Part shown: positions 1,357-64,000 of the stretch, piece after piece
Position numbering within the stretch: position 1 is the stretch's first letter
Layout: each line of letters opens with the position of its first letter
From: Tubiluchus corallicola
Taxonomy: Eukaryota; Priapulida; Priapulimorpha; Priapulimorphida; Tubiluchidae
Length of the DNA stretch: 64,000 nucleotides
Reading direction: 5' to 3'
NCBI GenBank assembly: GCA_030141605.1
Contig: JAQGDQ010000017.1
Span: 1,212,001 to 1,276,000, forward strand
Made by a program: the position numbers and the translations under genes
The notes under the pieces: model-generated
What the model was told of the DNA's origin: nothing
What the model saw: the letters and a program-made list of their open reading frames with translations, nothing else
Databases searched by the model: none

Positions 1357-9166
<7,810 letters not shown>

Positions 9167-13010: not shown

Positions 13011-13361
13011 GACCGTTTATCTCCTGGAGGGAGGATGTATATACATCTAACTCTGCAGGATACGTTTGACAATTCAGTGGCTTATCTTAGAGGGATGTCT
13101 TTCATAGTGAGGCAGTCTCCGGTCATGCCATAAAGTCTCTGAGTAGTCTTTGCCTTGTGTGGTAGATTCTGACTTACAGTGTGCCATAGTGTATAAAAAT
13201 GAGCAAGCTTACAAAAATTACCTTTTGTGTATCCCTATGTATTCAGAACAAATAAAATCTAAATGAGCTAGTTTCAGCAATAATTTGTGAGGTGCTAGTG
13301 TTGTAAAATTTATATCTTCCAGATAGTTGTATTCAACATCTAACTGACGTAGTAGCTTAAT

Positions 13362-13839
13362 ATGGGATCATATATATCAAGAGATGACAAGTTTACCTAC
13401 CAAAATGACATGCAGCGCAACCGAGGTGGACCGTACAAAACTGAGCCTGCAACAGATCTCACTAGGTGGCGCCTGGAGTGTGTCAAAGGACGTCAAACAT
13501 GGGTGTACATTGAAAATGATGATGAAAACAAGGCATGTCCACAAACATTACTGGAATTGCACTCCCTTGGTCTAGACACAACACATCTAGCACCTGACTT
13601 ACCAAAAGCAGAAACATGTCGTGATGCGCTGACCAATGGCATGAAATTTTACAGTAAATTACAAGCGGAGGACGGGCATTGGGCGGGCGATTATGGTGGA
13701 CCATTGTTTCTGATGCCAGGTTTAGTAATTGTTTCGTACATAACAAGTTTCCAATTCACTACAGCTCAGAGACTGGAAATGATCAGATATTTGCGGTCCA
13801 TTCAGTGTCCGGATGGTGGATGGGGTCTACACATTGAAG
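13362..13839 (+). CDS. LSS: LSS exon 1
   Basis: Residues 1-159. It includes [37 protein letters not shown] and [12 protein letters not shown]. The roughly 20-residue lead [11 protein letters not shown] is specific to this gene. Donor is GTAAAG. Confidence 0.93.
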
Positions 13840-38099: not shown

Positions 38100-39213
38100 T
38101 AAATAATGAGCTGGTAGAAAACTTATTGTAAAATAATCTTAATTATTTTTTCGTTTAATAATTAAGACGCACCTTAAATTTATAAATTTGTAATGTAATT
38201 CAAAAATTGTTGAGTCATACATTGTACATCTGTTAGTGTTACCTGCAAATTTGCAAATTTTAAAGTTACAAAAAATGAAACACCAGTCTTCATTCTTTCA
38301 ATAAAATTTTTTGTTGTACTGTTAACTGATATACCAATTAATCAAAACGACAAACAAATTTCTTGTATGCCTTAATTTAATTGTCCAAGTTGTTACTTGG
38401 TTGTTTATTACGTGGTACCTATAATATAGCACTCACATTTATTTATACAGACTACATATTGAAGTGTTATTTTCTTTTGAGACTTGTAATCCGCAAAATA
38501 TATTTAATGGAATTATGCAGGTTTAGAAGTGGTACAGTACGTTCTGAGGTTATTATACTCGTAATGCTTTAACTTTTTCACTAATTCCTAATAATGTATT
38601 ATAAACAGACCATTAAAAATTAGGCCAATAGTTTCTCAAGGTAAACAACTATGATTAACACTACGATGACAATTTTCTTGAATGTATTTAATAATGCATT
38701 GAATATTATTAATATATATATTTAGTAATAATTAATATAAATAATATAATTTAACAGGTCAAAATCCGGCCCTGATTATATATTAAACATAGGCGTAGAC
38801 ATTGACGCTACCTTGGTCATATTACTATAATTAGTCATTTATATTCAATTATAAATTAAAAATTATATTTTTAACTAACCTTGTGTATTTAACTTGTGTA
38901 CAGTGAAACAGAATTCTAGTTAGCTCGCTATAGTGATACGAGATATTTTTTCTTGAAATACGTGACGTCGTCATTGTCAGGGAAAATTGCTCTTGTAGGA
39001 AACTTCAAGCATAAAGGGGCGAGGGAAAAACGGATTTATAATTTTAATGGCCGGTAATTGCCAGACGTCAAGAAATGTAACATCCGTTACGCTTGGCTTG
39101 AGCGTATTTTTAAGCGTTGAAACGTCCGAAATCAATGGCTGTGTGGACGCAAAACGCGAGCAAAGTTACGCTGAATCAGGTGCTTTGAATTTGAAGCCCT
39201 TCTGCAGCCAGCC
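38100..39213 (+). promoter_or_regulatory. Upstream region of the alpha-2/delta gene
   Basis: The last 300 bp before the start are less AT-rich than surroundings. A TGACGTCG at 38963-38970 is one base from a consensus CRE. No TATA box was convincingly placed. The rest is plain AT-rich sequence. Confidence 0.25.
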
Positions 39214-42200: not shown

Positions 42201-45200
42201 TTGCTCTGAGTAATGAAATTGCAGTACACCATCATTTTGCATTTTACTTTCCATTGTTTGGTTAAGGGGTTAGGAATTGAAAAGCGCATCATCCCGTTGT
42301 CTGTCTATAGAAAAATTTTGCATTATACCTTCTAGACAGTAATAAGCCTTTTCATTGTTTTGCTTTGTGCATGCGCAGTTGCTGTAGGTCAAAGGTCACA
42401 GCAGCGTGTCTTAACTACAACCGTCATGTGACCCTGTGGGTAAAGCAAAGCCGTCTGCCACTTAGTTGAACTCAGTTATTTTACATGGACCTTATGTGTA
42501 CCAGACAACTCATTTGTGTACACTTGACAATGCCTCTCAACCCGTGCTATTGTAATAGTAACAGTTTTAAGATTTAATTAGAACCTTACCTAGTTCATTT
42601 TTCTCGTTCCCAAGCAAGATCCTGCTAGTAAATCAGTCTTCGCACAGACTAATGCATAATTAAGTAAAATTCACGTAAAACAACTGAAGTTACTGCTGTT
42701 GCAGACAGCTTTGCTTTACCCACACGTCACGTGACGATTGTAGTTAAGACGCGTTGGTGTGGTACATTATGTGACACCTTTGACATACAGCTTCTGCATG
42801 TGCGCATAACGAAACTATGAAAAGGGATACTAAGATTAGTAAGTAGTAAGGCACGGTCAATGTTCAAAGTCCTTTATCTTTAGGAGCACGAGTCTTTGTC
42901 TCTGTCTGAAACTTGTTTTTGCTGTTTTAGTAGCATCAGTGTCATACTATTTAAACTTGTAATCTAGTTAATCCGAGTCTTATTGTAACGTTGATTTTGA
43001 TTTATTCTGTAGGAGTACAGGAGGTATGACCCCAGCAAGGTTAAGTTTGATAGGACTGACTGCCCGAACCTCGTGAGCAAAGCCGCAGTTGCCATCGGAG
43101 ACAAATTGAAAAACAAATTAGCAGCCCTTAAGGTAAATTTGAAGATAATTATTTCTCTAACTATAGTCACCAGTCTAATGATTTCTCACATTGAAACATA
43201 TCAAACTTTGGGCATCAAGGCAACAGTTGGGTTACAAGTTGATGATGATGATGATGACGGTGTTTTTATGTTGCAGAAATCAGTGGCATTTGCTGAACAA
43301 CTTGCCGAGAATTTCATTCCAGACAAAAAAATTAAGGTAATTTATTTTATTATTTACTTTAATTAGCTGAATTATTACACATTTTAATGCTGTGAAATAG
43401 TGTAGATCAGTTTGTGATTAGTTTGCTTTATTAGCTCTTTTTTGTTTAATTAACTAATTGGCTATTTATTTTAATTTTTTAAACTTAGTGCAAACTAAGC
43501 AATTTTTATTGAATGTAAAGTATACAGCTAGTTGAATGCATTATTCACAGGTTGTGTTTGTTTAATCTATTTCTGTATTTGTAAGCAAAAAACATTTTTA
43601 TCTTCCATTAGTCCCAACCGATATTGATAGCCATATGTATAATATTTACTGCTTTAAGCATTTTTTTGTATACGTAATGTACATAAGCAGTCCAGTCTTA
43701 ATGATTATTTAAAAAACTAATTTTATTTTAATACCCTCAAAAAATGTAGTGTTGTTTCAGTAGTTGAACGCTTCTTTGGTACACACCAATGAGAAAAAAT
43801 AGGGGGCTAGTCCACAAACTTCTCTACTACCAGACAATTAAACAATGTTTCCCAGCAATACTTTAAACTTGTGAACCTATTACAGTGGTCAACCAGTCTT
43901 CTGCCCACCTTAATAATAAAGATTGTTACGATTTCATGTTTCATATCTTGTTTCATGTCTTTTCAGAAAGAGGATATTTGGTTTGTTAACGCTAAAGAAA
44001 TTTCTGCAAATGATGATGACTACATTTATAACGAAAAGTTCAAAGAGAAGGTCAATTTTAATCATTCGGCTGTTCATATACCATTAGAAATCTGGGAAGA
44101 AGGTATCGATTGATCTTGCTTAAGTTTAATATTGTTTAAAGAAAATCGGGAATTAATCTTTATTTGTGAAGATGCTAATTTATAACAGTTTGCACATTTG
44201 TCACTTTAAGGATAACAGTCAAGTTAATAATTAAATTGATTTGCTCTTTAAAAATAGTTTTTGCAAAGAAAATAATTGCAATGCCTGAATAGCTTAACTG
44301 ACACAATTACCCACCATTAACTGCATTTTTTTATAAATGTAGATGCTTTGAAAAATGAACTACAATTCAATTCAGTTCAATTTATTTTTTAACTCTGCAA
44401 AAATTATCAAAATGTAGTGTTAGGAATACATACAATATTTCGAAGCAAAGGAGAAGGGCAACGAAGACCCCGTAGGTTATCTAGTCAGCCACTCTTAAAT
44501 AGCTAGGATTAATTTTGGCACCATTCTTAATTTAAATTTGTATTCGGTTGACATGTGTAATTGGCATTTAAATGATGGGAAAGGTAATACTGTAGAACAT
44601 AATAATTTAAATAGCCAAAAATTTACAAATCTAAAATACTGTGAATCATGCGAAGCAAACAAAATAAAAATAACTTACAATTTTAACATAACAGAAAATG
44701 CATAATTTGAGCATTAACTTCAAAATCCGGCAAAAACAAAAAAACAGTAGAATGATCAACCAAAGATGTCGAGAAAAAGAATATAATAAATTAAACCTAA
44801 GAAAAATAGGCTAAATATAAATCACACAAAAACAAAAAACACAGAAGCAAACCATTTCTGCCTAATATCTGTTCTTATCTGAGGCGTCGTGCAAAAGCAG
44901 TTTACCATACATGTTCATGGAAGTTGCGTATTTACCCCCTGCTATTTCCTATTCATACTAATTTTCTGCTAACAAGTTTCCTATTAGTAGAGTACAAGAG
45001 CACTGATTCACAGTTTTGACTTTACTTATCTCTGACCGCGTCATTATTGATTGGTATCTAGGCTGTTACATTTGCAGATGAGAAAATCTTGAACGGGTTG
45101 AAATGGTCCAGCCAAATCGATGAAGTTTTTAATAAAAATTTGGAAGAAGACGAAAGTATTATGTGGCAGTATTTTGGAAGCCAGTCAGGATTCATGAGGA

Positions 45201-48200
45201 CATTTCCAGGTAAATTATTATGGACACCTGTAGAGATGGGTGATTTTTGAAATTTTGTGATTCGGTTATAATCTTGTTCTTGTATTCCGATATCGCGGTT
45301 AATCTTTTTTGACCATTTTTTAGTGTTTTAACCACATTTTTCAATGACTGCAGTGAAATATGGCCGATAAATTTCTTCACGGCTTTCGTTGCTGTCTTCC
45401 AATTACGTACTCGCCAACATTCATTATCTGCTCTATGATTACATCATTCCATGTATCACGTTGCCAACAAGTTTGAAGCTCTCAGCATGCAACACTGTAG
45501 CTCGTAAATGTGCACATTGTTTAAGGCGAGAAAAGGGTTAAAAAAATGCAAAGAATTTTTTTATTTTTGCTAAAAACACTGCCTTTTAGTCAGTGTGCAA
45601 CACGTATGTTTTGCTTTCGATTAATTGATGATTAATCGATGATACCGATTTACACATTGTAGTAATCTACATTAATTCGATTAATCAGTTAATCGCCTAC
45701 CATTAGACTCCTGTTATTACTGGTGTTTGAAATTTATGCTGTTAAAGAGGGTAACTTTTGTTAAGGAAAAATATTAACAGGTGCCCGTTATACAAATCAC
45801 AATTTATTATCCTTTTCATTTTTTTGAAACCGAATCATTTCTTTACCTTTATGTACATCTTTGTCTTTTCCAAAAAGATCTGTGTCTTACTTTTGGAGAG
45901 AGTTTCTAAAAGTGATGCTTCACAGTTAGTAATGATCTTTAGTTTTGTTGCATACAGTGATGACAAAATTGATAAATTATTGTCAACAAATGCAAATGTG
46001 GTTATGCTTGTAGTACTTAACAGAAAATGCCTTTTGAAAGTACTATGTGTTAAGAAGTGTGTTTTTTAGCGAGCAAATGGGAGGTACCAGCTGGTGAGCC
46101 TGCTGACATGTTTGATGTTAGACGACGTCCGTGGTACATACAGGGGTCAACTTCTCCAAAGAATGTGCTATTGCTCATTGATACGTAAGAATCTTCCTGC
46201 ACTTTTTCCATTAATAGCTTTTCTAAAGCACTCATGAATCAGCTTCTGATATGGATCGCATGTTTTTAGATCTCCGTGGATCAGACAAGTTCAATAACAC
46301 ATGCTTTCTGTACTAGTTGCTATGCATAACATTGTTTTTTTTCAGCAAAATTTGTGCTAGAGCCTTTAGAGAAGCTTTTTAATACTTATTTTTACATTGA
46401 CTGTTTACAATTTTAACTATAGAATTTTAAATTTTTCACAAATTTAATAAAAATAAAATAAAGGCAAGGAGCTTTAAGGTTATAAAGTATATTAATTACC
46501 TTACTACAACAATCGATTTGTTCAGTTATAGATACATCGTCATTCCTCATTCATCGTCAGTTTAGTGAGTAAAATATATCCTAGGTATGTTTTGTGATTT
46601 AAAGGTCGGGCAGCACACATGGACAGACTTTAGAGTTAATAAAAGTCACGACCAAGTCTATACTCGACACACTGGGCGAGAATGATTATGTCAATGCCAT
46701 GTGGGTAAGCACAAAATATCATCTTAGTATTTTTAATATTTTTTTATTGTTGCATTAAACACAAACATTTTAATCATCTGGTGTGTTCTAGTATTTCGGG
46801 ATAGAAAATTAGACGTCGACTTTTCGTAATAAAGTTACATTGACAACTCTTCACAAATCACGTTAATAATTCAGGTAGTAGTAATAGTTAGATGCAACAG
46901 AAATAAAGTGAAGTCCCACAGAATGCATGTGGGCAAATTATAAGACCCACTTGGTTTGTCACTGCTTCGTGGATATTGATATTTAAAACATGATAGTGTT
47001 TTACTTATTTATTTATTTATTTATTTTGATTACCGCTTAGGTTATTTTTGTCACCATGTGACTTTCCTTGTTGATTTTGTAGTTTAATCAGTACCATAAC
47101 TTCACGAGTTGTTTCCGCGACACGTTCGTGCAAGCTAGCAAGCGGAACAAGCAAGTCATTTCTGATGGTGTGGATGAGCTTGTGTCCCAAAACATGGCTG
47201 ACTATTCTCAGGGATTCGAGGCAGCTTTCCAACTTTTTGAAAAGGTAAAATATGAGCATTAAAGCATCGGCACATGTCGTGACATTGTCGGCATATAATC
47301 ACTTTATTCCATAGATGCTTCGGTTGTGACTACTGTCGTGTTCATTTCCTGCCTAGAATAAAGTAATTAGCATTGTAGTATAGTGAATATCCATTAACTG
47401 CATTTAGGGTATTCACCATTACAAGATGAGGCATGGAAATTAACAAGGAATAAGATCGGGTTTCCACGGTCAGGGAAAATCCTGGAAAATCCTTGAAAAT
47501 ACAGGCTCTCCTGGAAAGTCATGGAAAAATCAGGGAAAAGATAATTTGATAAAAAATCAGGGAAAATGATGAAAATGGGGTGAAGTCAGGGAGATTGGAA
47601 AGGGTTACAAAAATAATCACTGTACACTGATATTGTTTCAAACGTATTTTTCGATGATTTGTGGTAATGATTGGATTATGTGATTAGTGTAATTTCGTTA
47701 GCACTACTGCAACTGTGCCGACACATTATATATCACCATATCTATGAATGTCCATACACAAAAATGTTTGAATATGTTTACTGGTAATACAAATTCTGCT
47801 TAGCTTGGTCAAGGAAAATCAATATTTGGTCAGGGAAAAGTCAGGGAAATTTATTTTGAAATTCTGTGGGAATGCTGATCAGACCATTTTAATAGTAGAA
47901 CATTACATTTGGCATACCTGAGGTACATTATGAACACAGTTGGTTACCTTTGAAATACGTATTGGTCTGATTTGACTCACCAACCGAAATTGTCAGAGTG
48001 TAATTACTGATATTAACTGTTATAATTAATTGCATTGATACAGTTAGTGGTACTTATAATTGTTTACTGTTATTTTTATTGTTTTTATTTTGTAATTTGT
48101 AAAGTTTGTTTTGTATTGAGTAAAATGTTAAAAAATAAAATAATAAAAAAGACAAGGAATAGATTTTGAAGTACCGTATTTTCCCGTGTATAAGAGACCC

Positions 48201-51200
48201 TTTTTTGCTCAGAATTTTCACTTTAAAAATAGGGGGTCTCTTATACATGGGAGTAAGTCTTTTCAATAAGATGCATAAATTGTGACACTAATGATTTTAA
48301 AGAAATAAGTGCTCTACAACTGTTTTGCGTGTCGCGTTCGACTATGAAGCGGTTGTAAGCAATACAAGCATCGTGACACAGGCATTATCTCCTCGTTTTC
48401 TCTTTTCCTGTTACAGGTTTGCAGGTGCGCACTTTAATATATACCAGTACTCTTTTTCTACAACACATTAACTGGTTTTATTTTGTTTTCAGTACCGCAC
48501 TGAGTTGAAAAAAGTTGTACTTTACCCTCTAAAAATGTCCGTCTGAAAAAACTTTTTTCCAGAATTTTTGCCTAAAAATTGAAGGGGTCTCTTATACACA
48601 AGGGTCTCTTATACACGGGAAAATACGGTAATTGCCATGTCAGGCTGTTTGTCATTGGGCTAGAAATGCCAACACACATTGCCACTTTGTTGTTGCTTTT
48701 CATATTTTTACTCTAGACATTCCTAGGTGCTGAACAACTGTTTATAATTCTAATTTTTCCTCTGGTCTCTTATCTGTGAATTTCTCCACCATAATATTGT
48801 GTCTTGTTACCTACAACTTCAACCAACCTGCTTCAAGATTTGTGCTACAAATTCTTATCATAGACAAATTAGTTATAAGAATTCAATTTTTTGGCTCGTG
48901 TATGCATTTTAACTTTTTACTATAATTTCTCACCTTGAGTGATCACTAGCATTATTTGGTGATTTGAACTAAAAACATATAAGAAGCTTCTGAGTTTAGA
49001 TTATATGACTACTCTGAAAGTAATCGTACAATACCTAAAAGTTCAGCATGTAAAAAAACAATGTAAAAAGTTTTCATACTCTGAGGGAAATTATGGTAAC
49101 TGCTTGTGCATGTGTTAAACTCATGTCTTTCCGTTTAGTTTCGCATTGAGGAAGCTGAAAGCATGCGAGGCTCAAAGTGCAATGAGGTTATCATGTTACT
49201 GACCGATGGAGGAATGGACTATGCCAAGGATGTCTTTGAAAAGTACAACAAAGACAAAGGGGTGGGTTTTTGTCAGTAGGCATGTCGAAAACAAAGAAAA
49301 GGTGGGAACAATGCATCTTTTATTGTAGACCTGAGAAAAACTACTGATTTAAAATAGGAATAATTATTACGTTAACTAATTTATGCGGTATTTACAATGA
49401 TACAATGACAATGATAAAGATTTGTAAATTACATTAATGTAGCCGAAAAAAGTAGACTACGCTCTAATTTCGGTTTGCTGGACAAAAGAGACGTTGGTCT
49501 GAATATGCCGATTGTCTGTATTTCCCGATACTAAGCTAATACAGTAGGCGCTGTGTATTAGACTCACGGTAATGTAGAATCAATCACTTAATTGTCTCAA
49601 AAACGTCTAGTACGTGGCTCTCCTGACATATAAGCTATACACATGTCGTTACACCCTGCTTGGTTGCACTGATGTAAACAAAGTGACGGCCCGTCAACTA
49701 GCGGTCAGCTCACAAAACAGCAGACTATGTCCGTCGTATGCACGACTTTTAACGGTCCAGATTTTGTCCGATTTTTCCAATATCTGTACTAGCGAGGTTC
49801 GGCAAACCGAGATACGAGTGTACATTAGTATAGTCGGCCGACAAAGTCACGTATAACGCCTAATACATTACAATGGTAAAGATCTTAATTACGTTTCAGC
49901 AAATGTGGTTTAGTGCATGATTACATGAAGTAACAAAAACGATGTAAACTAAAAAGATTTGATAATCTGTAATAAAAATTAATAAATATTATTCATTATG
50001 TATAATAAACATGGTATAACATTACGGGGTAAATGATACGACATAACTTATGAACTGAGGTCTAGATTGTCCTCGATGTGGAGCCTTTGGAGATAACATA
50101 GCGCTGAGCGAAAGCCGCTCTATTAACTCCATGCAATATAGTTATCCCAGTGAATTGAGGTAGAAATAAAGGAAGCCTAACTAGATTGAATAATAAGTGG
50201 CCTGTTGAGGAGTAACTGGGCAGAATACCAGATAATGCGGCCTACAGATTACTCATTCACACAAAATGGTTGTGTGTTCACTCATTAGTGAAGAGCAACT
50301 TGTTTGCCAGGGGAGGTCCCGATAGCCAAGGTTTTAAAAAATTATGATGCCGTACTTCGAGAATGTGTCATGTTGGCGAGTCTCTTGACAAGACAACCTA
50401 GTTTGAGAAAATCCTAGTATTCTTTTTTTTAGGAAACTGAGAACAAGATTTTGGTAGAAAAATGACAACTCTTGTATGTACTCTTTGCTGGTCACAGTTT
50501 ACAAATTGAGCTTTTACTTATGCTGTTAAATGAAAGATGGGACTTCCTCAGACTTACCCTGGTTTGAAAGAGCTTAAAAGTGATTAATTTTTATAATATT
50601 AACGTCGAGATTATTATTATTATCTGTCATTATTATCACTAGATGAAGATTATTATTACAAACCACTATTAGTTAAATTGTGATATTAAATTTGGAAGAC
50701 AAGAATTACAAATGGTTGGAATACAGCCTGGATTTGAACCAGGGATCTTCTGCTTACAAAGAGTGCACTCTACATACTAAAAGTGTTTACCTTCTTCATA
50801 GGTTCGTGTGTTCAGTTTTGCTGTTGGTCCTGCAGCAACACCGATTTCTGGACCGAAAGTGATCGCATGTAGCAACCGGGGTTACTTCACTAAAATTCCG
50901 TCCATGGGATCCATTCGCAGCAATGTCCAGGTAAACGATTGTTTTGCATACATACATACATACATACATACATACATACATACATACATACATACATACA
51001 TACATACATACATACATACATACATACATACATACATACATACATACATACATACAAACATACATACATACATACATACATACATACATACATACATACA
51101 TACATACATACATACATACATACATACATACATACATACATACATACATACATACATACATACATACATACATACATACATACATACAGACAGACAGACA

Positions 51201-51264
51201 TACAGACAGACAAACAGATGCACATTCACACATACATGCATTCACACATACATACATACATACA

Positions 51265-51297
<33 letters not shown>

Positions 51298-52275
51298 GCC
51301 TTATCATTGTAATTAACAAATAAATATAGCTTGATGTCAACTCTTAATAAGAAAGATAAACACTTAAAAAAGGGCATAAAGATAAGCCAAGTGCTGATAA
51401 TTTATCGAGTAACCTCAAATAAATTGCTGGCATGTGCTTTTTCACAATAGTTGTGACATGGAAATTGTAATCTCATTCTGATAGACCTTAGGCTAATGAG
51501 TGTCACGTACATTATTTTAACTTTAACTGTGACATTTTCATGAACTTTGCCTTGGCACTTAGAACAATTTTAACTTGTGCAGTTTTTATATACAGTTCAA
51601 CACTGATTGATTGATTTACTTTATTTCAAACAATTACGCTCATATCTTTACAAATATCCGCAATTTACATATATTTGTGACTACTTGATGATAGTCACCA
51701 CTGACTGGCAAGCCTAATACTAATGTTAAATAGTTGTGACAGGACTGGTACTTCGCTGATTTCAAGAATAATTCTCTAAGATGAGATAATATACCAATAG
51801 AGATGTTTTTGTCATTTGTGGATATACTATATGCCATGCTCAGAGAGTGAAATTTCACTTCTATATTATTTATTTCGATGTTTTTCTGAAATCTTTTTGC
51901 AATTAGTTTCTTCAACCAACGCAATATATTATCTAAGTTAAACTTGCAAATAGGTGTTTGTGCCCATATTGGCACGTCCGATGATCTTACCCAATGCTAA
52001 GTACCCTCAGTGGACTGGAGCTTATCTGTCATGGCAAGGCTTGGTACGATACTGTATGCTCACACAACTAACACTGAATGTTGTGCTTTTAATTTTTAAC
52101 GACAGTGTTGTATTACGTGCATAATTAAGAATAGAGTTGTGTAGGATGCTATAATTAGCCATGCGATGTTTGGCTAGAATAGCTAGTTAATTTGCTGTAT
52201 AGCTGCATCAATGTTAACACAATAATTTTACTCTACTTAGAAACTTGTGCAATAATACTTAGCTCTTCGTTCTTT

Positions 52276-52343
<68 letters not shown>

Positions 52344-55097
52344 TCTCTCTCTCTCCCTCTCTCCCTCTCTCCCTCTCTCCCTCTCTCCCTCTCTCCCTCC
52401 CTCCCTCCCTCTTTCCCCCTTGTTCTGTTCTCTTTTTGTTATTTCTTAATCGTTATTTTATCTTTTTCTTTTTATCAATTTCCACTGAACTTCACAATAT
52501 TTCCAATTACAGTAAGTCCTCTCTTAACGATTCCTTTTAGCAGCAATTAGTGCTTTGAATCTTTTGCCGCGTTGTTTTCACTTGACTACAGGTATCACAC
52601 TTTGATGATGCATTTTGGCATTCTAGGTGCTGAAGTTTCACTATTGTGTCGGCATTTTGCAAACAAGTAAAATTTGTTACTTTAACGAACACTGCTAGCT
52701 ATGCGTATTTTTCATCTTTTATAGACAAGTAATGAATAAATGTTACCAGTGAAACCCATAAAAAGTGAACTAAGTCTTAATGTTTTTTTGTCATTGGAAC
52801 TTGCCTCCATGATTTCACATTATTCCTTATAGAGGGGTTAGCTTGGTTTAACAAAGTTTAATTTGATGCAGCATTTACTGGAATACTTTAATGCTGTTAA
52901 CCATGGACTTACTGTATTAAATTTCCTAAATATCTCATCCTTTTCGCATATTGTGGTCTATATTCAATGCACTTATGACACATTGCTAATTATTAATAGT
53001 GTTGACTGCATCACGTCTTTAGCGATGTTCTGTGTCTCGCATGCTGCCCCCTATAGGAGTATACTGTAGTCTTGTCACGGCCAATGGTGCTCTCAAAAAA
53101 GAAGAATTCGCAGTGGACAAATGCGTATCTGGATGCTTTGGTAAATCTCGTTATACAATCAAACTATATATTCAAATTTCATTGTTTTGTTAAGAATAAT
53201 TTATTTATTCTGGCAGAAGCAGATATATAAAACGTGTGCTTCTGTTTTGATAGTAATGATAATCACTAATTATTTTCAAATAATGTCGATACTTAAAGCA
53301 TGATTTAGACATTGCTTATTTTGCTTAAACTCAATAAATTATTACATCTTTTAAGCACGTAAAAGTTTCTTATGCTTTTATGGGGAAAAATTATTTCTTT
53401 AAAAAGAATGGTTGATAAGATAATGTTACCTTTGAACTAGTTCATTTGAAATAGTTTCTTTAAACAGAATAAATTTGAGTTTTTGCATTGTGTTCATAAC
53501 AACGCTACAGTTTTCAACAAATGACACTGGCGTAGCAACAAAAATATATACAGTCCCTACAAACTTTGCGATATTATAGAAATGTAGAAAAAGTGAAAAA
53601 TCTTTGTTTTGCAGCTGTAGGTAGATTCAAAATTTCTGCTTTACTATAGCAGCATGTCTTCATTGTTTGACGAGAGTCGTCATTCAACTTGAAAGCCTTT
53701 CTCTGGCATTCTATACCGATTAATTTAAAGGCGCATATCGAAAGTGTCATTTGTATAGACGTTGTAGAACGTGTTTGTAGTGATTGTTTGATTCATTGGT
53801 TTACCAACCTGGCATGATTGTGTATTGCATAATAATAATTATGTCAGCATCTCATTGATATAATAGTTGCTAGTGCATGGTTTACAGATTTAACAAGCTT
53901 ACTAAGCCTTTTCACAGTTTCGTTGTGCGCACGCAAAGTTGCTGTAGGGCATAGGTTAAGTGTACCACAGCAATGTGTCTTAGCTACAACCGTCATGTGA
54001 CATACGGGTAAAGCAAAGCCATCTGCTGTGTCACTTCAGTATCTTCAGTTGTTTTACGTGAACTTTACGTAATTGTGCATTATTCTGTGCGTAGAGTAAT
54101 TTACGTGCAGGATCTTACTTGGGAACAAGGAAAAATAATTAGGTAAGGTTCTAGCTAGCTATTGAAACTGTTACTATTACAACAGCAAAGGCTGCAAGGC
54201 ATTGTCAAGTGTACACAATGCATTGTCTAGTACACTTAACCTTTGACCTTTTCATGATCATCATCATGAAACTGTGAAAAGGCTTATTGTTAGAGTCGTT
54301 TTGCAAAGTGAAAATATTTTCTTAAAAGTGGTGATAATGCAATTTTTATTATGTTTAGCTGATAAAGTTAAGTATGTTTACTTGCCGAAAACAAATTTTA
54401 AGAGGCTGGTCATCAAATATGTTTATTTCATTTAGATATACTTTTAACTTTGTATAATATACGTACATGTGCTTTTAAAGATTAAAAATGCTTAATCGTC
54501 ATTTTTTGTTTTTCGAAATCGGATAGTTAAATGGGTTCATGAGACAATTTCCTGATATATAACTCAATATTTCGACCACCTATTATGACAATTTAACCAG
54601 CTGTTCATTTTGCAACTGTTTTATTAAAACTTTTCTTAAATGAAGGACACGTTGTGTGTGTTTATTGTGGCTGGATTAGAGTCTAAAGTTCACATTATGT
54701 ATAGGTTCGTGCCTTCGGGGCATTTAGTTGAATTAACAGAGCTGACAGTGTGCCCACATGAATTTAACGAGTCCTCTCTGCAACATCTGTGATGCTTCTT
54801 ATTTTAAATGAAGGTAGTAAAGCGTGTTTACAATATTTTTCTTCTCTTTGCTAGTATTTACATGTTTAAATGTGTTTTTCAGAATATGGGGATGATTACT
54901 ACAGTGATGCTGCCTGTTTATAACATTTCCACGAAGGGGGTATGTTTTTCATACGATTCACGTTTCTTGTGTTTATGAACGCTGTATTGGGAAATGTAAA
55001 CAAGCAGAGTTGTTACTTGACAATTGTTTATGATTGTAAATTTCTGTCTATTTCGCTATTTATTCATTTGTTCTATCAATTGGGGATCGTTTTATTG

Positions 55098-55138
<41 letters not shown>

Positions 55139-58100
55139 TAGTTATTTCGAAATTGCAGTGCAATTTTCAATTTGTTTGTAGTGTAGAAATATAAGAATAT
55201 TTACACATTATAGTTACTCGAGTACAATAAAAACAGTACATCACTTAATTTAATTTTGACATATCCAATCTGGTATCAGGTTAAGTTTATTTCTGTTAAA
55301 AAATTCAGAATGTTGACGCTAGATTGCATTCACAATATTTTTCATAAATAATATAACCCTTTTAACAGTTTTTTTTTGTGCGAACGTGCAGTTGCTTTAG
55401 GTCAACTGTTAAGTGTACCTCAGCAATGCATCTTAACTACAACCGTCATGTGACATGTGGGTAAAGCGAAGCTGTTCAGTAACTTCACTTGTTTTACATG
55501 GACTTTACTTGATTATCCATTAGTCAGTGTGTAGAGTCATTTACTAGCAAATCTTACCATTATAATAGCATGGGCTGCAAGGCGTTGTCAAGTATACACA
55601 AATGCATGGTCTTGTACACTTAACCTTTGATCTTTTCATGGTCATCATCAATCGCTGGAACTGTGAAAAGGCTTATTAACAATTGGCAGCATTTCGTGAA
55701 ACTCTGTTTTACTGAGCTTGTCTTTGACCTGTAGAATCAGCTTTTTTCATGCATTCGTGAATTGCAGGATAATCAGACTTTACTCGGCGTGATGGGTCTG
55801 GATGTTCCCACATCTGAAATGACTGAAGAAATTCCGCAGCGAATAGTGAGTAACTTAACCTTGTTTTCACCAACTGGGTGTGTCTACTGTTACCCTTTTT
55901 CTATATAATGCTGAACTCCTTCAGAACCATAAGTGTTTGCTGTTCATGAAAAAGTGCTCTCACTAAGCAGCAGTTACATTATATTTGATGTTTTTTGTAG
56001 GTTTCTACTCCTCACACAATGGATTTTCATGCAAAATTATATATGAAATGCAGTTGCTTAGCTTAGACAAATTAAAGATCGATTTTTGACAAACAAATTG
56101 AAATACGCTTTCAGTAACTGCAGTGTACAATATCACTTCTGTGAAATCGTCTAATGCAGTAAATTTCAGTTATCCAGTCACAACACTCTGATGCACTTTG
56201 GCCTCTTGTCTACTCTATTTTTAAAATTTTAATTTAGTCGAGATACTTCTGATTAGAACAGTACCAAATTTGTAATCTTTATTTATGTTTGTGCTCATAC
56301 AGTAGCAGAAAAGTCATAAGTCTTCTAAGACCTATCTTGAATGGTGTGGTTCTGAAGGAGTTAACCTGTTGTTGTAGAGTAGCATTAAAATGAAAATTCA
56401 ACGTGTTCGTAACCGTAGCGAAATGCCATTTTTGGTATTTATTTTAGCTAGTATGCTTTTGTGTGTTCCATTGTTTGCACTCTTTTGCTTTTCAAGATCT
56501 TATTGAATGCAAACTTTTGATTTACATGACCACCAAAGAGGTTCATTAGTTCTTGCATATCCTGAAAATTTATTACTATAAGTACATAAATACTGAGACT
56601 GGACTGTCATTGTAAGTGAACTGTTATAATATATATATGTAACTGCATAGGAAGTGAGTAGTTTCAAAATTCTCAAATTTCAAAATAATTTATTGAGTTA
56701 ACAGATATTACAATCACATTAACTGGTGCGTAGTTTTAAAATACAATATATAAGAAATAAATCCGTATAATAAAAATAATTATGTGACAATAATCACTGT
56801 TATTAAAGAAAAATAATGAATGGTGACCTAAGAAGCAATGGCTTATGGCAGGCCATGCATAAGTATTTTATGAAACAATGTTTCTCAGTTGTTAGTCATT
56901 AGTAATTTTGCACACTACTATCCTAAGATTAAGAACTGCTGCTTAAAAGCTACCCTAAGATCAAAACTGTGTAATTTGCTAAAATAAGCAGTACTCACTG
57001 TATTATTGCCATAATATACACAATGTCTCATTATACTATATTACTCTTGTAAAAATGACAAGAACCGTGTAACTTATGCCTATGATGCACCAAAGCATCC
57101 AGCATCTGGAAGCGAGAAATAACAGGTGCATATTGTCAATAAGTTGAAACCAAAGATTTTGGATGTGGAAGCTGGAAGCCAGACACTGGAAAACAGAAGC
57201 CATTTCCTATTTTTTGAGCACTTGTCATCAGCATCTGGTCCTAACCAGCCAATGATGACTGGGCTTGTGCTCAGGTTGTCTGCGGTGGTAAATTCTTATG
57301 CTAATAAGCAACGGAAAAATATAGGCATTGCAAAAATTAATTTGAGTATGTCTCTTTTTGTTTACGTGCAAAAAACTTGGAGATTGGATTGTGGAAGCTT
57401 TTTATTCTAACATCCATTGAATGCTAAATGCTGGAAACTGACAACCAGCTGTGCGATGATAGAGGATGGACGCTTAGGGTATTGAAGGCATTAGTCTGCA
57501 ACGATTTTAGAAAAATAAATTCCTGGTCTGTGTGTAGATGCAGTTTTAATGAGTTGTTATATACACATCATACATGTAAAAGAAATGGCTGTTGGTAGAA
57601 AAGTCGTCTGTTCATTAGGTAGTGTTACGTTTTAGTTTGTGATTAATTTTCTGGTGATAATTTTCTGTGTTTTTTTTTGTCATTTCAGCTTGGTGCAAAT
57701 GGATATGGCTTTGCTATAAACAATAATGGATTCGTTCTGTTTCATCCACGCCTAAGAGGACAGGTTTAGCTAATAATTCAGTTTTTGTTTAGTTAATAGA
57801 ATCACATTTAACATTCACATAGTTTAACAGTTTGTATCTGTTAATGCCAGTTGCTAACGGCAACAAAATGGGGCAATTTGATGTAAAGTACTGATTATTA
57901 TTCAACAAACGTTGCTTATTTGTATGAACTTGTATGAAGATTCAGATTTTCATTTTTTTTCCATAATAACAATGTCAAATAACAAAAATGATGTAAATAA
58001 CTAATAGAAAGGGAAAAGGTTGGTGAAAAACTAGGGTTATCAAGTCCACCACCCTTCAAGGGTTTCATGTTATTAGTAAAGTTAGAAATTGACAATCATT

Positions 58101-61100: not shown

Positions 61101-64000
61101 TCATTTACAAGTTAGTCAGATCGTACCCGCTACATCAATTGTTGTTCCTAATTTCGGGCAGTCCTACTTTTAGGGTGATTGAACCCTGGCCAGTACCACT
61201 TAAATTGTCTGTCATTATTATGATTAAGATCCAGGATTGATAAGTCATCATTTATCTTTAATTTCAGTTGGTACCTTGTTTCCTTGAGTTGCAGTCTCAA
61301 TTTGTTCCTACATTTAAGGTGCCTGGGAGACACTAGGTACCACTTGTAATGTCTGTCATTCTCAAATACATGTTCCGGGAATCATAATGTTAAATTAAAA
61401 TCAGCTGGTGTCTCTTACCTTTGATCTAAGCCATTTTAGGGTCGTTTCGGGGCACTCTAGAGACTACATGTGCCAATGGTACCACAGCAGCCATCCTTAC
61501 CTGAAGATCGCATATTGTTTTCAAACTTCTTATATGACTAAATATTTCATATCTCGCTTGCTTGATTGGCTGGCAGGGTCCTTGAGGGTCTCTTTCTTTA
61601 AACTTTTTTAATGACTACAACAAATGCAACATTTCAGTCCATTCATTTCTAAAAAGAAAACTGATATACTGATGAAGTAAGCTTATATATAAATAAACAT
61701 TATGATTGGCAGTTTTCTTATTAAATCATGACAATCTGACACTTAGCCTTAATTTAAAAAATTCTTTTTTTCTTTCTTTACAGGAAGTATTGTACAGGAT
61801 ATGATGTCATATTGAAAGGAAATGACTCCACAGAAGCTCTCAGCAATCTTCTCATTAATTCTGCACCTTGTATGTAAAAATTATGCAAAAAAAACTGTCA
61901 TTGAGCAGAGTTTTAACTGCAGTAAAGCAGTTTCTGGTTCATAATTACACATGTTATTATTTACGATTGAGAGCGTATATTAAAAGAGAAAAAAAGCAAA
62001 TTATTATAACCTAGATAATAATGATTTGTAAACTTTTTTACCAAGTTTTATTGGATGCAGTCAAACAAGTAAATTTAGCTCAAATTTAATATGACTTATA
62101 CATGTTAATAGTTACTAAAATTATTAACATAAATTGTACCTGTCTTAAACCAAAGTTCTTGCTCATTTTATTGCATTATTTGCGATGCATTAAGCGTTTC
62201 AAGTGGTTGTCTGTTTTCCAAATTTCATTGTCAACGTTGTCAACTGTCGAACCAAAAATGTTTTATTATTATAATGTATCGGGTGTGTCTCTTCCACTTT
62301 ATGTACCACAGGGTGACCAATTTGATAATGTCTCATACACATTCAACAGCCTCAAGTCATTGTTTTGCTTCGGAAATCATTTGCGCTTATTAACTGTTTT
62401 TCGTTTGTTTGTTTAGGTGATGAAGATTTGGTACAGAATCTGATGTGGGATCTTTCCGTCACCAAATTTGCTGATAAGCTTTGCCACATACGACGAAATA
62501 CAGATGAGGTGTTAGGGAGTTTTGTAGCTACAAATGGTGGTCTCACTCGAGCTTGTCCATCAAGGTGTGTGACAATTTGTGATGCATTTGTCTATCCATT
62601 GTTTTTTTTAAAATTGCATCCACTCACTTAAACTGTTTAACTTAAAATACTTCTAACTACAAGTGTTGTGTTTCTATAATATGTATTGCTATGTGGTAAT
62701 GTTATAATGTGTGTTACTATGTGGTAGCATTATAATATATATTGTTGTGTGGTAGTGTTATAATATGTATTACTATGTGGTAGCGTTATAATATATATTG
62801 TTATGTGGTAGCAAAATTTGGGGATTTTCACAGTTTTGAACAAATTGAATTTTTTTATCAAAAAGCCAGCATATAAAAAATTTGCTTAGAGAACATAAAT
62901 CAACCCCAAATTGTAGGGTATATGGTGAAGTTGATCGGTGTACTGTTAATTCTAGAATGTTAAGTTTCTGGGGTGAATCGGCACAGGGGAAACTATAAAC
63001 TATCTATTATTTGGTTTAGTATATTAAACAATATGTATGTTAAAAGTACGTATAAATCAAAGTGACTTATGTCAGTTCGAAATATTTTAGATGTTAGTAG
63101 TGCAGAGTATGGTAGCCGATATTAACATAAAATGCTTTAAATCAGCCGCAGATTTAAGGCTGAGAGATATATTTAAACTCAGTTGGAGTAATAACGTTAA
63201 TATACTAGCCAATTGTGTTGTAGCTAGCGAATTATAAAGGTTGAATTAAAATTTGAAATGTGTTTAAATGTATAGGATCACACCAACACAGGAAGTCTTT
63301 CTAAGCATAAACTGCATAAACATAGCAGTCAAACTGCCCATTTCTGTTGATAAATTCAAATTTGACAAATACATAAGAGACGATATTGATGAAAGAATGT
63401 GTAATCTGTGTAGCTTGCAAAAGCAGGGTGATGAATTCCATTATGTGTTAATGTGTCTGTACTTCCAACATGCCAGGGAAATGTACACTAAAACATACTC
63501 TTGTAGGAGGCCTAATATCTTAAAGTATAAACAACTTTTTTTTCAACTAGTAAATCTAAGAAAGTAAACAATTTGGCAAAGTATGTTAGGGTTATAATGT
63601 CTGAATTTAGCTAGATTACTATAATTTTTGCTGCACTGTATGAGTTATATTGTTCTTACTTAATTGTTGTTATGTTCTCTCCACCCAAGGTGGCAGTAGA
63701 GATTTGAAATAAATCTGAATTTGAATTTGAATATATTGTTCTAAAACAAAAACATTTAAAACAACCGCATTTTCTTATTCTCTGCATTTAGTAAGCAAAT
63801 AAATTGAGTAAAATTGGTGATAGCTTTCATTGACTGCCTCTGTCAAAATCCATAAAATAGCAACAGTAAACACAGCTTTCTAAGCACATTATAGAGATTT
63901 TCATTTTTGTTGTTTCAGCTTCATTAGTGAACTAGAAGATGACAGTGATGTTCACAAAGCAAATTATTATCTACGAGCAGCTGTGGCTGATACGTTCCTG
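39222..64000 (+). CDS. CACNA2D: Voltage-gated calcium channel alpha-2/delta subunit, 3' end outside window
   Basis: Known role: extracellular, membrane-anchored auxiliary subunit that promotes trafficking and current of Cav1/Cav2 channels. Twenty-two exons with consistent phases give about 719 residues before the right edge; family members run near 1,100, so the C-terminal third is missing. Order: signal peptide ([19 protein letters not shown]); VWA_N region including WFVNAKE, HSAVHIP and [11 protein letters not shown]; a VWA domain from about residue 234 with the MIDAS DTSGS at 240-244 and LLTDGG near 350; Cache-type regions with [10 protein letters not shown] and [19 protein letters not shown]; then YCTGYDV and [14 protein letters not shown]. 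The Thr expected near residue 313 for a perfect MIDAS is Ala (MADY). Two alternative exons follow exon 11. The exact paralogue cannot be named. Introns carry MITEs, a LINE and several microsatellites. Confidence 0.95.
39693..39774 (+). CDS. CACNA2D: CACNA2D exon 2
   Basis: [20 protein letters not shown] then KYIAIQE, the W...I...L N-terminal helix of the family. Donor GTAGAT. Confidence 0.8.
40000..40270. repeat. Dispersed repeat, possibly a LINE 3' region
   Basis: Contains GAAAGGGTGGCAAAAGAACT and a CAGCCACCCT block that reappear, diverged, at 57960-58190 and, weakly, at 44370-44600. The three share layout but no frame. Confidence 0.35.
42344..42828. mobile_element. AAGCCTTTTCACAG MITE, copy B (long fold-back)
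   Basis: About 485 bp. Both arms, roughly 130 bp each, carry the same GTGCATGCGCAGTTGC..CTTAACTACAACCGTCA..GGGTAAAGCAAAGC sequence in opposite orientation. The middle lies inverted relative to copies A and C. In CACNA2D intron 2, before exon 3. Confidence 0.8.
43013..43132 (+). CDS. CACNA2D: CACNA2D exon 3
   Basis: [36 protein letters not shown], ending AALK; continues the N-terminal helical region. Donor GTAAAT. Confidence 0.88.
43277..43336 (+). CDS. CACNA2D: CACNA2D exon 4
   Basis: Twenty codons, [20 protein letters not shown], between TTGCAG and GTAATT. Confidence 0.82.
43967..44102 (+). CDS. CACNA2D: CACNA2D exon 5
   Basis: [13 protein letters not shown], acidic [10 protein letters not shown], then [23 protein letters not shown] is a family hallmark. 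Confidence 0.92.
44370..44600 (-). repeat. Probable LINE 3' tail
   Basis: On the minus strand it ends AAATAAATTGAACTGAATTG, the polyadenylation-like signal plus short TGAA repeats seen also at the LINE end near 63.7 kb. A GGCTGACTAGATAACC block precedes it. Confidence 0.4.
45078..45209 (+). CDS. CACNA2D: CACNA2D exon 6
   Basis: [20 protein letters not shown] then [19 protein letters not shown]; matches the L..W...LDEVF..N....LLWQ.FGS.TG..R..P region. Confidence 0.95.
45231..45705. mobile_element. Short non-autonomous hAT-type element
   Basis: Ends TAGAGATGGGTGATT and, inverted on the right, TAATGGTAGGCGATT are imperfect. Flanking 8-mers gacacctg (45223-45230) and gactcctg (45706-45713) match at 7 of 8. 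The interior carries ATTAATCGAT-type motifs. It sits 21 bp after exon 6. Confidence 0.72.
46070..46184 (+). CDS. CACNA2D: CACNA2D exon 7
   Basis: [37 protein letters not shown]. It covers the [11 protein letters not shown] signature and runs into the first MIDAS Asp. Donor GTAAGA. Confidence 0.96.
46605..46704 (+). CDS. CACNA2D: CACNA2D exon 8
   Basis: Completes DTSGS, then [20 protein letters not shown] and [13 protein letters not shown] strand-helix unit. Donor GTAAGC. Confidence 0.95.
47083..47244 (+). CDS. CACNA2D: CACNA2D exon 9
   Basis: [54 protein letters not shown]. It matches the SCF..LVQA..RNK..L..A.. block. The MADY replaces the T-D-Y of a perfect MIDAS. Confidence 0.95.
47450..47890. 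repeat. TCAGGGAAA-rich repeat
   Basis: The motif TCAGGGAAA or close variants recurs at both ends. The outer parts GGGTTTCCACGG and CTGTGGGAATGC are weakly inverted, as in a degraded MITE. Ends are not sharp. Confidence 0.4.
48172..48630. mobile_element. MITE with perfect 29-bp terminal inverted repeats
   Basis: Left TACCGTATTTTCCCGTGTAT.. and right ..ATACACGGGAAAATACGGTA are exact reverse complements over 29 bp (48172-48200, 48602-48630). Each arm has a second, subterminal copy of GGTCTCTTATACA. If the terminal TA is the duplicated target it is a Tc1/mariner-type element. No frame inside. In CACNA2D intron 9. Confidence 0.9.
49139..49261 (+). CDS. CACNA2D: CACNA2D exon 10
   Basis: [47 protein letters not shown] carries the last MIDAS Asp. 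Confidence 0.95.
49459..49822. mobile_element. Inverted-repeat MITE, copy 2 of a pair
   Basis: Aligns in reverse orientation with 31365-31721 along its full length. The right end GGCAAACCGAGATACGAGTG is intact; the left end (ATTTCGGTTTGCTGGAC) is diverged. In CACNA2D intron 10. Confidence 0.72.
50712..50790 (-). pseudogene. tRNA-Thr(TGT)-like pseudogene or SINE head
   Basis: The minus strand reads TTTGTAAGCAGAAGATCCCT, then GGTTCAAATCCAGG: a seven-base anticodon loop TTTGTAA (anticodon TGT) and a perfect CCTGG-TTCAAAT-CCAGG T arm. The 3' half resembles eukaryotic tRNA-Thr. The D and anticodon stems do not pair well, so it is not a working tRNA. It ends about 11 bp before the splice acceptor of exon 11. 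Confidence 0.55.
50802..50930 (+). CDS. CACNA2D: CACNA2D exon 11
   Basis: [43 protein letters not shown]. Matches VRVFTFSVG....G..W.AC.N.GYY..I.S.GAIR. Donor GTAAAC. Confidence 0.96.
50946..51294. repeat. (CATA)n microsatellite
   Basis: About 350 bp of CATA units with an interruption of CAGA and CACA units at roughly 51186-51247. It begins 15 bp after exon 11. It generates long Tyr-Val-Cys-Met and Ile-His-Thr-Tyr frames in every phase, which are artefacts. Confidence 0.98.
51954..52043 (+). CDS. CACNA2D: CACNA2D alternative exon 12 (first of the pair)
   Basis: Thirty codons, [20 protein letters not shown] then [10 protein letters not shown], between AAATAG and GTACGA, phase 0 at both ends. 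It aligns without gaps to exon 13 over 25 positions, sharing L-RPM-L, QWT and AYL. It is the more diverged copy relative to other animals' alpha-2/delta. Confidence 0.8.
52279..52420. repeat. (CT)n / (CCCT)n microsatellite
   Basis: About 140 bp of uninterrupted pyrimidine on the transcribed-sense strand, located in the intron between the two alternative exons. Confidence 0.97.
53057..53140 (+). CDS. CACNA2D: CACNA2D alternative exon 13 (second of the pair)
   Basis: Twenty-eight codons, [20 protein letters not shown] then TNAYLDAL, phase 0 at both ends; acceptor CTATAG, donor GTAAAT. This is the canonical EYL.VL.RPMVL....QWTN.YLDAL block. Confidence 0.93.
53902..54286. mobile_element. AAGCCTTTTCACAG MITE, copy C
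   Basis: Ends TAAGCCTTTTCACAGTTTCG and GAAACTGTGAAAAGGCTTA are near-perfect inverted repeats. The interior shares ACTACAACCGTCATGTGAC, TAAAGCAAAGCC and TTACTTGGGAACAAGG with copies A and B. In the intron after exon 13. Confidence 0.85.
54883..54939 (+). CDS. CACNA2D: CACNA2D exon 14
   Basis: Nineteen codons, [19 protein letters not shown], matching LG.VITGTLPVFNIT. Donor GTATGT. Confidence 0.9.
55097..55137. repeat. (ATT)n microsatellite
   Basis: About 13 ATT units in the intron after exon 14. Confidence 0.9.
55354..55675. mobile_element. AAGCCTTTTCACAG MITE, copy D
   Basis: The shortest and most diverged copy. The left end TAACCCTTTTAACAG is mutated, while the right end GGAACTGTGAAAAGGCTTA is intact. 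It shares CTTAACTACAACCGTCATGT with the others. Confidence 0.75.
55768..55845 (+). CDS. CACNA2D: CACNA2D exon 15
   Basis: [20 protein letters not shown] then EIPQRI; LLGVMG.DV is conserved at the start of the Cache region. Donor GTGAGT. Confidence 0.94.
57689..57763 (+). CDS. CACNA2D: CACNA2D exon 16
   Basis: [20 protein letters not shown] then RLRGQ; the Cache-type NGY.FAI..NG.VL.HP motif. Confidence 0.95.
57960..58190. repeat. Dispersed repeat related to 40000-40270
   Basis: Shares the GGGAAAAGG..GGTGAAAAACTAG..CCACCACCCTTC layout with the copy at 40.1 kb. No frame. Confidence 0.35.
58233..58304 (+). CDS. CACNA2D: CACNA2D exon 17
   Basis: [20 protein letters not shown] then KNIQ; corresponds to the P..DFLD.E.E segment. 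Confidence 0.88.
58455..58850. repeat. Dispersed repeat, copy 3
   Basis: Diverged copy of the family at 1-440 and 8287-8770 (AAATTTCCATACAAAGTTAT, TATGCACTACTGATTCACCA, GAAGTTTAAACTTAGAAGTT). In the intron after exon 17. Confidence 0.5.
59093..59226 (+). CDS. CACNA2D: CACNA2D exon 18
   Basis: [48 protein letters not shown]...G......V.S.DE....... .YT..PI matches the family. Confidence 0.92.
60225..60329 (+). CDS. CACNA2D: CACNA2D exon 19
   Basis: [34 protein letters not shown]; the SL.LVLP...YY block. Donor GTAAGT. Confidence 0.92.
61784..61869 (+). CDS. CACNA2D: CACNA2D exon 20
   Basis: [20 protein letters not shown] then NLLINSAP; corresponds to IAPRDYC.DL. Donor GTATGT. Confidence 0.9.
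62417..62564 (+). CDS. CACNA2D: CACNA2D exon 21
   Basis: [56 protein letters not shown] is a family signature. Donor GTGTGT. Confidence 0.93.
62675..62813. repeat. 28-bp tandem repeat, five units
   Basis: Unit close to TATAATATGTATTACTATGT followed by GGTAGYRT, five head-to-tail copies in the intron after exon 21. Confidence 0.9.
63060..63735 (+). pseudogene. 5'-truncated LINE, ORF2 C-terminus and 3' tail
   Basis: The frame at 63268-63567 carries [20 protein letters not shown] then [11 protein letters not shown], the C..C....DE.H.L..C..Y...R zinc-binding end of LINE ORF2 proteins. The frame is intact for about 99 codons and ends in a stop. The 3' end is AAATAAATCTGAATTTGAAT, a TTGAA-type short repeat. 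The same strand as the host gene, in its intron 21. Confidence 0.72.
63919..64000 (+). CDS. CACNA2D: CACNA2D exon 22 (cut by window edge)
   Basis: After TTTCAG it reads [20 protein letters not shown] then AVADTFL. Open to the edge; it corresponds to the region before the second conserved block of alpha-2. Confidence 0.88.

Follow-up and report, generated by a model that had tools for sequence, protein, structure and literature searches.

A tandemly duplicated exon at the predicted ligand-pocket wall of an alpha2delta gene in Tubiluchus corallicola, with a second such pair in a paralogue

Abstract

In an alpha2delta (CACNA2D) gene of the priapulid Tubiluchus corallicola, the exon aligning with part of the amino-acid pocket wall of alpha2delta-1 is present in two homologous, intact and phase-matched copies (exons 12 and 13). 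The protein motif of the segment is retained in them, and a second such pair lies in a paralogous gene of the same genome. We consider it probable that this is a duplicated pocket-wall exon and that transcripts join either exons 11-12-14 or exons 11-13-14, so that the two isoforms differ in the wall of the pocket. The two pairs more likely arose through separate duplications in the two genes. A similar arrangement has been reported at this place in molluscs, and we compare the two at the end of the text.

Materials and methods

The window, by which we mean the whole stretch of DNA analysed, is 64,000 nucleotides long, and positions refer to it unless a contig is named. The gene model is a codon-level spliced alignment over window positions 38001-64000 plus 14 kb past the window end. 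Its guide was a human alpha2delta-1 sequence, which was checked against independent PDB searches using the raw frames; the downstream model exons at 57823-57882 and 61235-62355 fit poorly, and no reliance is placed on them. The genome (G000) comprises 343,548,820 bases in 2,344 contigs.

Candidate exons for comparison with the segment were phase-0 AG-ORF-GT stretches between 22 and 38 codons long; the window and two paralogue regions, scanned on both strands, gave 3,893 of them. In the context test, the segment between exons 11 and 14 was set against the matching stretch of alpha2delta-1. To assess intron pairing, pieces of the introns of the window gene, freed of simple repeats, were compared in six pairs. 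The criterion for telling the alpha2delta-1/2 type from the alpha2delta-3/4 type (RRRPWY, and Phe at the Ala217 position) was taken from PMC9901441.

Results

The window gene belongs to the alpha2delta family

Judged by its profile matches, the gene on the plus strand of the window is a member of the alpha2delta family. VWA_N (PF08399) scores 64.7 bits against a cut-off of 34.7 and VWA (PF00092) 49.0 bits against 23.8, and the C-terminal VGCC_alpha2 region (PF08473) is found at C716:1280035, about 4 kb beyond the window end, with 27.4 bits (cut-off 22). For the dCache_1 profile (PF02743), whose curated cut-off is 45 bits, the gene falls short with exon 13 (36.2) as well as with exon 12 (34.3); the dCache region aligns strongly with alpha2delta-1 (124.1 bits for 150 aa). 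The gene carries the triple Arg of RRRPWY and has Met, with no blocking Phe, at the Ala217 position, and by RRRPWY it looks alpha2delta-1/2-like.

The window holds two further features recognised by eye. Upstream of the alpha2delta gene, plus-strand exons at 13356-25611 have translations resembling oxidosqualene cyclase (lanosterol synthase), and inside the gene an open frame at 63268-63564 looks like the tail of a retrotransposon reverse transcriptase.

Exons 12 and 13 are homologous copies of one segment

The original prediction described exons 12 and 13 as two phase 0-0 versions of the same segment, and the phase 0 junctions of the spliced alignment bear this out; the coordinates and translations that it gave are exact (Table 1). 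It had estimated about 12 identities over 25 ungapped positions, and 12 of the 25 residues are indeed identical. At the codon level, 7 of the 25 are identical, 5 differ synonymously and 13 non-synonymously, five of the 12 identical residues being encoded by different synonymous codons in the two exons. The pair scores 61, a value reached by none of 20,000 shuffles of exon 12 (maximum 30). Against the canonical segment, where exon 12 has this score of 61, the best non-overlapping candidate exon scores 20. The RPM, QWT and AYL blocks are retained in exon 12.

When the guide, which carries one such segment, was aligned with the gene, the aligner picked exon 13 and passed over exon 12. In PDB searches with each exon alone, exon 13 finds alpha2delta at an E value of 6e-4, and exon 12 finds no alpha2delta chain even at E values up to 10; in their protein context the searches give 124.1 bits with exon 13 and 106.4 with exon 12. 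No further copy of the segment was matched in introns 11 to 13 of the window gene. We regard the tandem duplication of this segment exon as secure and read the pair as an old duplication, some residues of which have been held since, with exon 13 as the canonical copy and exon 12 as the diverged one. The two are tandem homologous exons of equal phase, one of the features expected of a mutually exclusive pair.

Table 1. Positions of the features discussed. Window positions are given except for the two copies on contig C1038.
Feature	Position	Strand	Description	Basis
Exon with motif start	46070..46184	+	Opening half of the amino-acid-binding motif, with the triple Arg, and beginning of the VWA	Spliced alignment
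Exon 11	50802..50930	+	End of the VWA region, closes ...SIRSNVQ, phase 0	Spliced alignment; alpha2delta-1 match
Exon 12	51954..52043	+	Alternative copy, 30 codons, phase 0-0	Translation; homology to exon 13
Pyrimidine run	52280..52421	+	Uninterrupted, 142 nt, largely CT repeat, intron 12	Counted from sequence
Exon 13	53057..53140	+	Canonical copy of 28 codons, phase 0-0; alignment partner of alpha2delta-1 residues 427-456	Spliced alignment; PDB search
Exon 14	54883..54939	+	Begins in phase 0	Spliced alignment
Exon 15	55741..55845	+	Contains LGVMGLDV, its Asp aligned with Asp493 (rat Asp491) of alpha2delta-1, a ligand-binding residue (PMC9901441)	Spliced alignment; PDB search
C1038 copy a	38696-38779		Upstream of copy b; KYFHVLARPMVINEIRHTAWTKQSVDMG; donor strong (4.6), acceptor moderate (1.91)	
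C1038 copy b	42887-42970		28 codons, phase 0-0	

The segment is predicted to contribute to the ligand pocket

Residues of the segment aligned with exon 13 are numbered as in the full-length rabbit chain. Counted directly, the closing YLDAL of exon 13 corresponds to Tyr452, Leu453, Asp454, Ala455 and Leu456. Tyr452 is probably the motif Tyr of alpha2delta-1. The positions of Trp225, Tyr238 and Arg243 in PMC11308618 agree with the rabbit numbering. Ala455 is named as part of the gabapentin pocket in the same source, and Asp454 is labelled in the pocket figure of PMC9901441, in which the second half of the binding motif contains a Tyr and an Asp, the latter being rat Asp491. The equivalents of Arg243 and Asp493 are encoded in other exons of the window gene.

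Exon 13 retains the Tyr, Asp and Ala of the pocket. Exon 12 ends in YLSWQGL; here the Tyr is kept, the Asp is gone, there are two extra residues, and a Trp is among the changes. In copy a of the C1038 gene, Ser stands in place of the motif Tyr and the Asp is retained. The same pocket would therefore be altered differently by each alternative. The difference in charge to which the original prediction had pointed (KKKNS in exon 13, NAKYP in exon 12) is real but lies in a stretch that is variable among the copies, and the more telling difference seems to be in the pocket residues that the 3' end of the exon encodes. The constant part of the gene also has residues unlike those of the alpha2delta-1 pocket, Tyr238 being replaced by Phe and Ala217 by Met, and even with exon 13 this counts against a simple ligand reading.

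Splice sites, frame and introns

Both exons had been credited with good splice sites. On a simple score this holds for exon 13, with an acceptor matched or exceeded by 5.3% of the AGs in the window and a donor matched or exceeded by 4.5% of its GTs, but not for exon 12, the acceptor of which is weak (0.29, matched or exceeded by 51% of AGs) and the donor, gtacga, mediocre (0.6, by 7.7% of GTs). Weak sites of this sort are what a regulated exon would show, and also what a failing one would.

The frame stays open in all four combinations (exon 12, exon 13, both or neither), both lengths being multiples of three. The intron between the two exons measures 1013 nt, not too short for splicing, and the splice sites around both exons are ordinary GT-AG. 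We looked for a device that would itself enforce exclusion, be it a frameshift, a short spacer, a clash of intron classes or competing RNA helices, and found none that was convincing; such a device is not a required feature, and regulated exclusion exists too. Competing intron helices were dropped as a candidate: for five of the six pairs, between 5 and 11 of 30 shuffles do as well as the real sequence. The sixth pair, within intron 12, does better than all 30 of its shuffles.

Intron 12 contains the long pyrimidine run of Table 1. Pyrimidine runs are possible binding places for PTB-type repressors, and this one may be such a site; it could equally be a plain microsatellite. No comparable run occurs in the scanned introns of the C1038 gene, where the longest is 14. 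A long ATAC microsatellite lies at about 50950-51297 in intron 11, and together with the run in intron 12 it flanks exon 12; microsatellites are plentiful across the window.

Fit of the possible isoforms to alpha2delta-1

In the context test, exon 13 alone gives 129.4 bits, exon 12 alone 111.8, both exons 121.0 and neither 77.3; across 50 shuffles of exon 12 the mean is 82.0 and the maximum 92.1. The use of one exon or the other had been proposed as the simplest model. The proposal stands in that either single exon fits far better than skipping; on the other side, nothing tested in the sequence forces exclusion. Double inclusion scores below exon 13 alone yet above exon 12 alone.

A second pair in a paralogous gene

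Matches to the VGCC_alpha2 family fall at four loci of the genome, namely the window gene and loci on C1701, C1038 and C2123. The C1701 and C1038 genes look alpha2delta-3/4-like, by RTRGWY and by the Phe at the Ala217 position, and in both of them the segment is likewise a separate 28-codon exon of phase 0-0. The C1038 gene has a second tandem pair, the upstream member of which, copy a, is diverged and without the motif Tyr; copies a and b score 61 against each other, and none of 20,000 shuffles reaches this value (maximum 36). A match of score 42 just downstream of exon 11 of the C1038 gene was considered as a third copy or relic and dropped, 7 of 200 shuffles reaching it. The C1701 gene has one copy only, no second copy or relic being found in the region scan or the genome search.

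A six-frame search of the genome with copy b, at E values up to 10, matches at least five places, and all five are alpha2delta segment exons: exons 12 and 13, the one in C1701, and copies a and b themselves. The window copies and copy a are individually weak in this search (E 0.5 to 1.9), its force lying in where the matches fall. The same search with exon 12 finds itself and exon 13 (E 0.15), and the paralogues are not reached. Two of the three alpha2delta genes found carry the duplication, three being the number found and not a proven total.

The fourth locus (G000:C2123:174001-182000, frame 1783-5361) consists of one uninterrupted open frame, 1,193 codons long, apparently intronless and CACHD1-like, in which VWA-like and Cache-like parts and a C-terminal hydrophobic, transmembrane-like stretch can be discerned by eye. 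The alpha2delta genes of this genome are, in contrast, intron-rich, and the frame is a possible retrocopy. The joined VWA piece of C1701, used as a query, also matched exons on C1990, C1821 and C954; those on C1821 and C954 are family-like VWA exons, and the match at G000:C1990 77563-77727 is, by eye, an exon of an apparent further CACHD1-like gene (WQYFGSKWGFHRSYPGKQW...YDPRQRPWYIAATSGPKDIVIVLD).

Discussion

Origin of the two pairs

Separate duplications in the two genes are the more likely origin of the pairs. If a single ancient duplication had preceded the split between alpha2delta-1/2 and alpha2delta-3/4, exon 12 and copy a of C1038 would be orthologous, and some features agree with this: in each of the two genes the extra copy is upstream of the canonical one, the extra copies share LARPM where the canonical copies of the genome have LSRPM, and exon 12 and copy a score 35 against each other, which none of 20,000 shuffles reaches (maximum 28). 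Exon 12, however, scores highest with exon 13 (61) and only 35 with copy a, and copy a scores highest with human alpha2delta-3 (63) and then with copy b (61). In the best tree, which is built on 28 to 30 residues and has poor resolution, exon 12 stands beside exon 13 (67) and copy a within the alpha2delta-3/4 group (66 and 75). A tree constrained to unite the extra copies is worse by 5.3 log units under WAG (p-AU 0.037) and by 2.6 under LG+G4 (p-AU 0.116), and we therefore disfavour the single duplication and judge it rather unlikely. Forcing copies a and b as the most recent pair costs 5.6 under WAG (p-AU 0.028) and 2.9 under LG+G4 (p-AU 0.083).

Use of the two exons

In the mechanism that we propose, a phase 0-0 exon for part of the predicted amino-acid pocket wall in the first dCache domain was duplicated in tandem, and splicing would join exons 11-12-14 or 11-13-14, yielding two isoforms that differ in this wall. 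We infer that exon 12 would be used to the exclusion of exon 13 in part of the transcripts, and that ligand binding, and hence the trafficking of the channel, would be changed. Since neither the frame nor the length of the spacer nor the intron class enforces exclusion, it would need regulation in trans; the weak sites of exon 12 would make skipping the default, possibly with the help of a pyrimidine-tract-binding repressor.

The same weak acceptor and mediocre donor could mean that exon 12 is a duplicate in decay that is seldom, if ever, spliced in, and that the gene uses exon 13 only. Its faster divergence (branch length 0.67 vs 0.18 for exon 13), the loss of the pocket Asp and the insertion of two residues point in this direction as well. 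Yet its 30-codon frame is open and both splice dinucleotides are intact, despite synonymous codon changes in five of the 12 retained residues, and the three conserved blocks are kept; moreover, a phase-identical extra copy exists in another alpha2delta gene of this genome, and molluscs are reported to have mutually exclusive exons at this place (PMC5818475), so that we hold decay to be unlikely. Inclusion of both exons, always or sometimes, would give a protein with a tandem repeat of the segment. The lengths would keep the frame, the intervening intron is long enough to splice, and both exons together still score 121.0 bits in context; this score is nevertheless lower than that of exon 13 alone, about 30 extra residues would be placed inside a folded pocket, and the segment is single in alpha2delta-1 and in the C1701 gene, all of which makes double inclusion very improbable. 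One-or-other use of exons 12 and 13 is the reading that we prefer.

A further step is tentative, and we would sooner doubt it than adopt it: splicing might act as a ligand switch, in which exon 13 gives an alpha2delta-1/2-like amino-acid pocket and exon 12, without the Asp454 equivalent and with a Trp-containing turn two residues longer, gives a pocket for another ligand or for none, the same switch being made in the second paralogue through loss of the motif Tyr, probably after a separate duplication. If the switch were real, splicing would decide in each cell whether ambient amino acids act on calcium channels. The purpose of the universal amino-acid-binding pocket of alpha2delta is unsettled; PMC9901441 found that Trp or Phe alone had no effect on surface expression. 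A natural exon swap at the pocket wall, present in two paralogues and reported at this place in molluscs, would offer matched isoforms for testing it.

Comparison with known systems

The closest known system is that of the molluscs. For the first alternative region of alpha2delta in Aplysia there are three potential sequences, and for Crassostrea and Octopus accessions Table 1 of PMC5818475 lists "three mutually exclusive exons" between VWA and Cache. These exons belong to the same gene family as the pair described here and, judged by the printed exon ends (QEY..DSL and QAY..DPR in Crassostrea; QHY..DSH and QEF..DRS in Octopus), lie at the same position; their use is described as one or the other. 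The mollusc exons and the segment exon have in common a Q followed by EY, AY, HY or EF and a D-x-x close. They differ in that three copies are reported in molluscs and two were found in the window gene, and in that exon 12 is without the D-x-x ending. The kind is therefore already known from this report, which answers the question of copies in other animals but takes away the novelty.

In vertebrates, regions A, B and C of CACNA2D1 are also subject to alternative splicing within the dCache domains, and one variant has a lower affinity for gabapentin; these are cassette exons and an alternative acceptor elsewhere, and the portions of PMC9901441 drawn on here mention no duplicated exon at the segment. 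Duplicated exons are likewise swapped one for one in the pore subunits CACNA1C and CACNA1D and in e37a/e37b of CaV2.2 (PMC5740500, PMC5818475). Those pairs lie in the pore-forming subunit, whereas the window pair lies in an extracellular auxiliary subunit, and "CACNA2D" is absent from the main text of PMC5740500, which treats human mutually exclusive exons.

No link of the mollusc exons to the ligand pocket is made in the parts of PMC5818475 used here, and in the literature that we searched, with most subscription papers outside it, we found neither such a link for these exons nor a pair in two alpha2delta paralogues. To the molluscan precedent, the present analysis adds the parallel pair in a paralogue and the placing of the pocket residues Asp454, Ala455 and probably Tyr452 within the exon.
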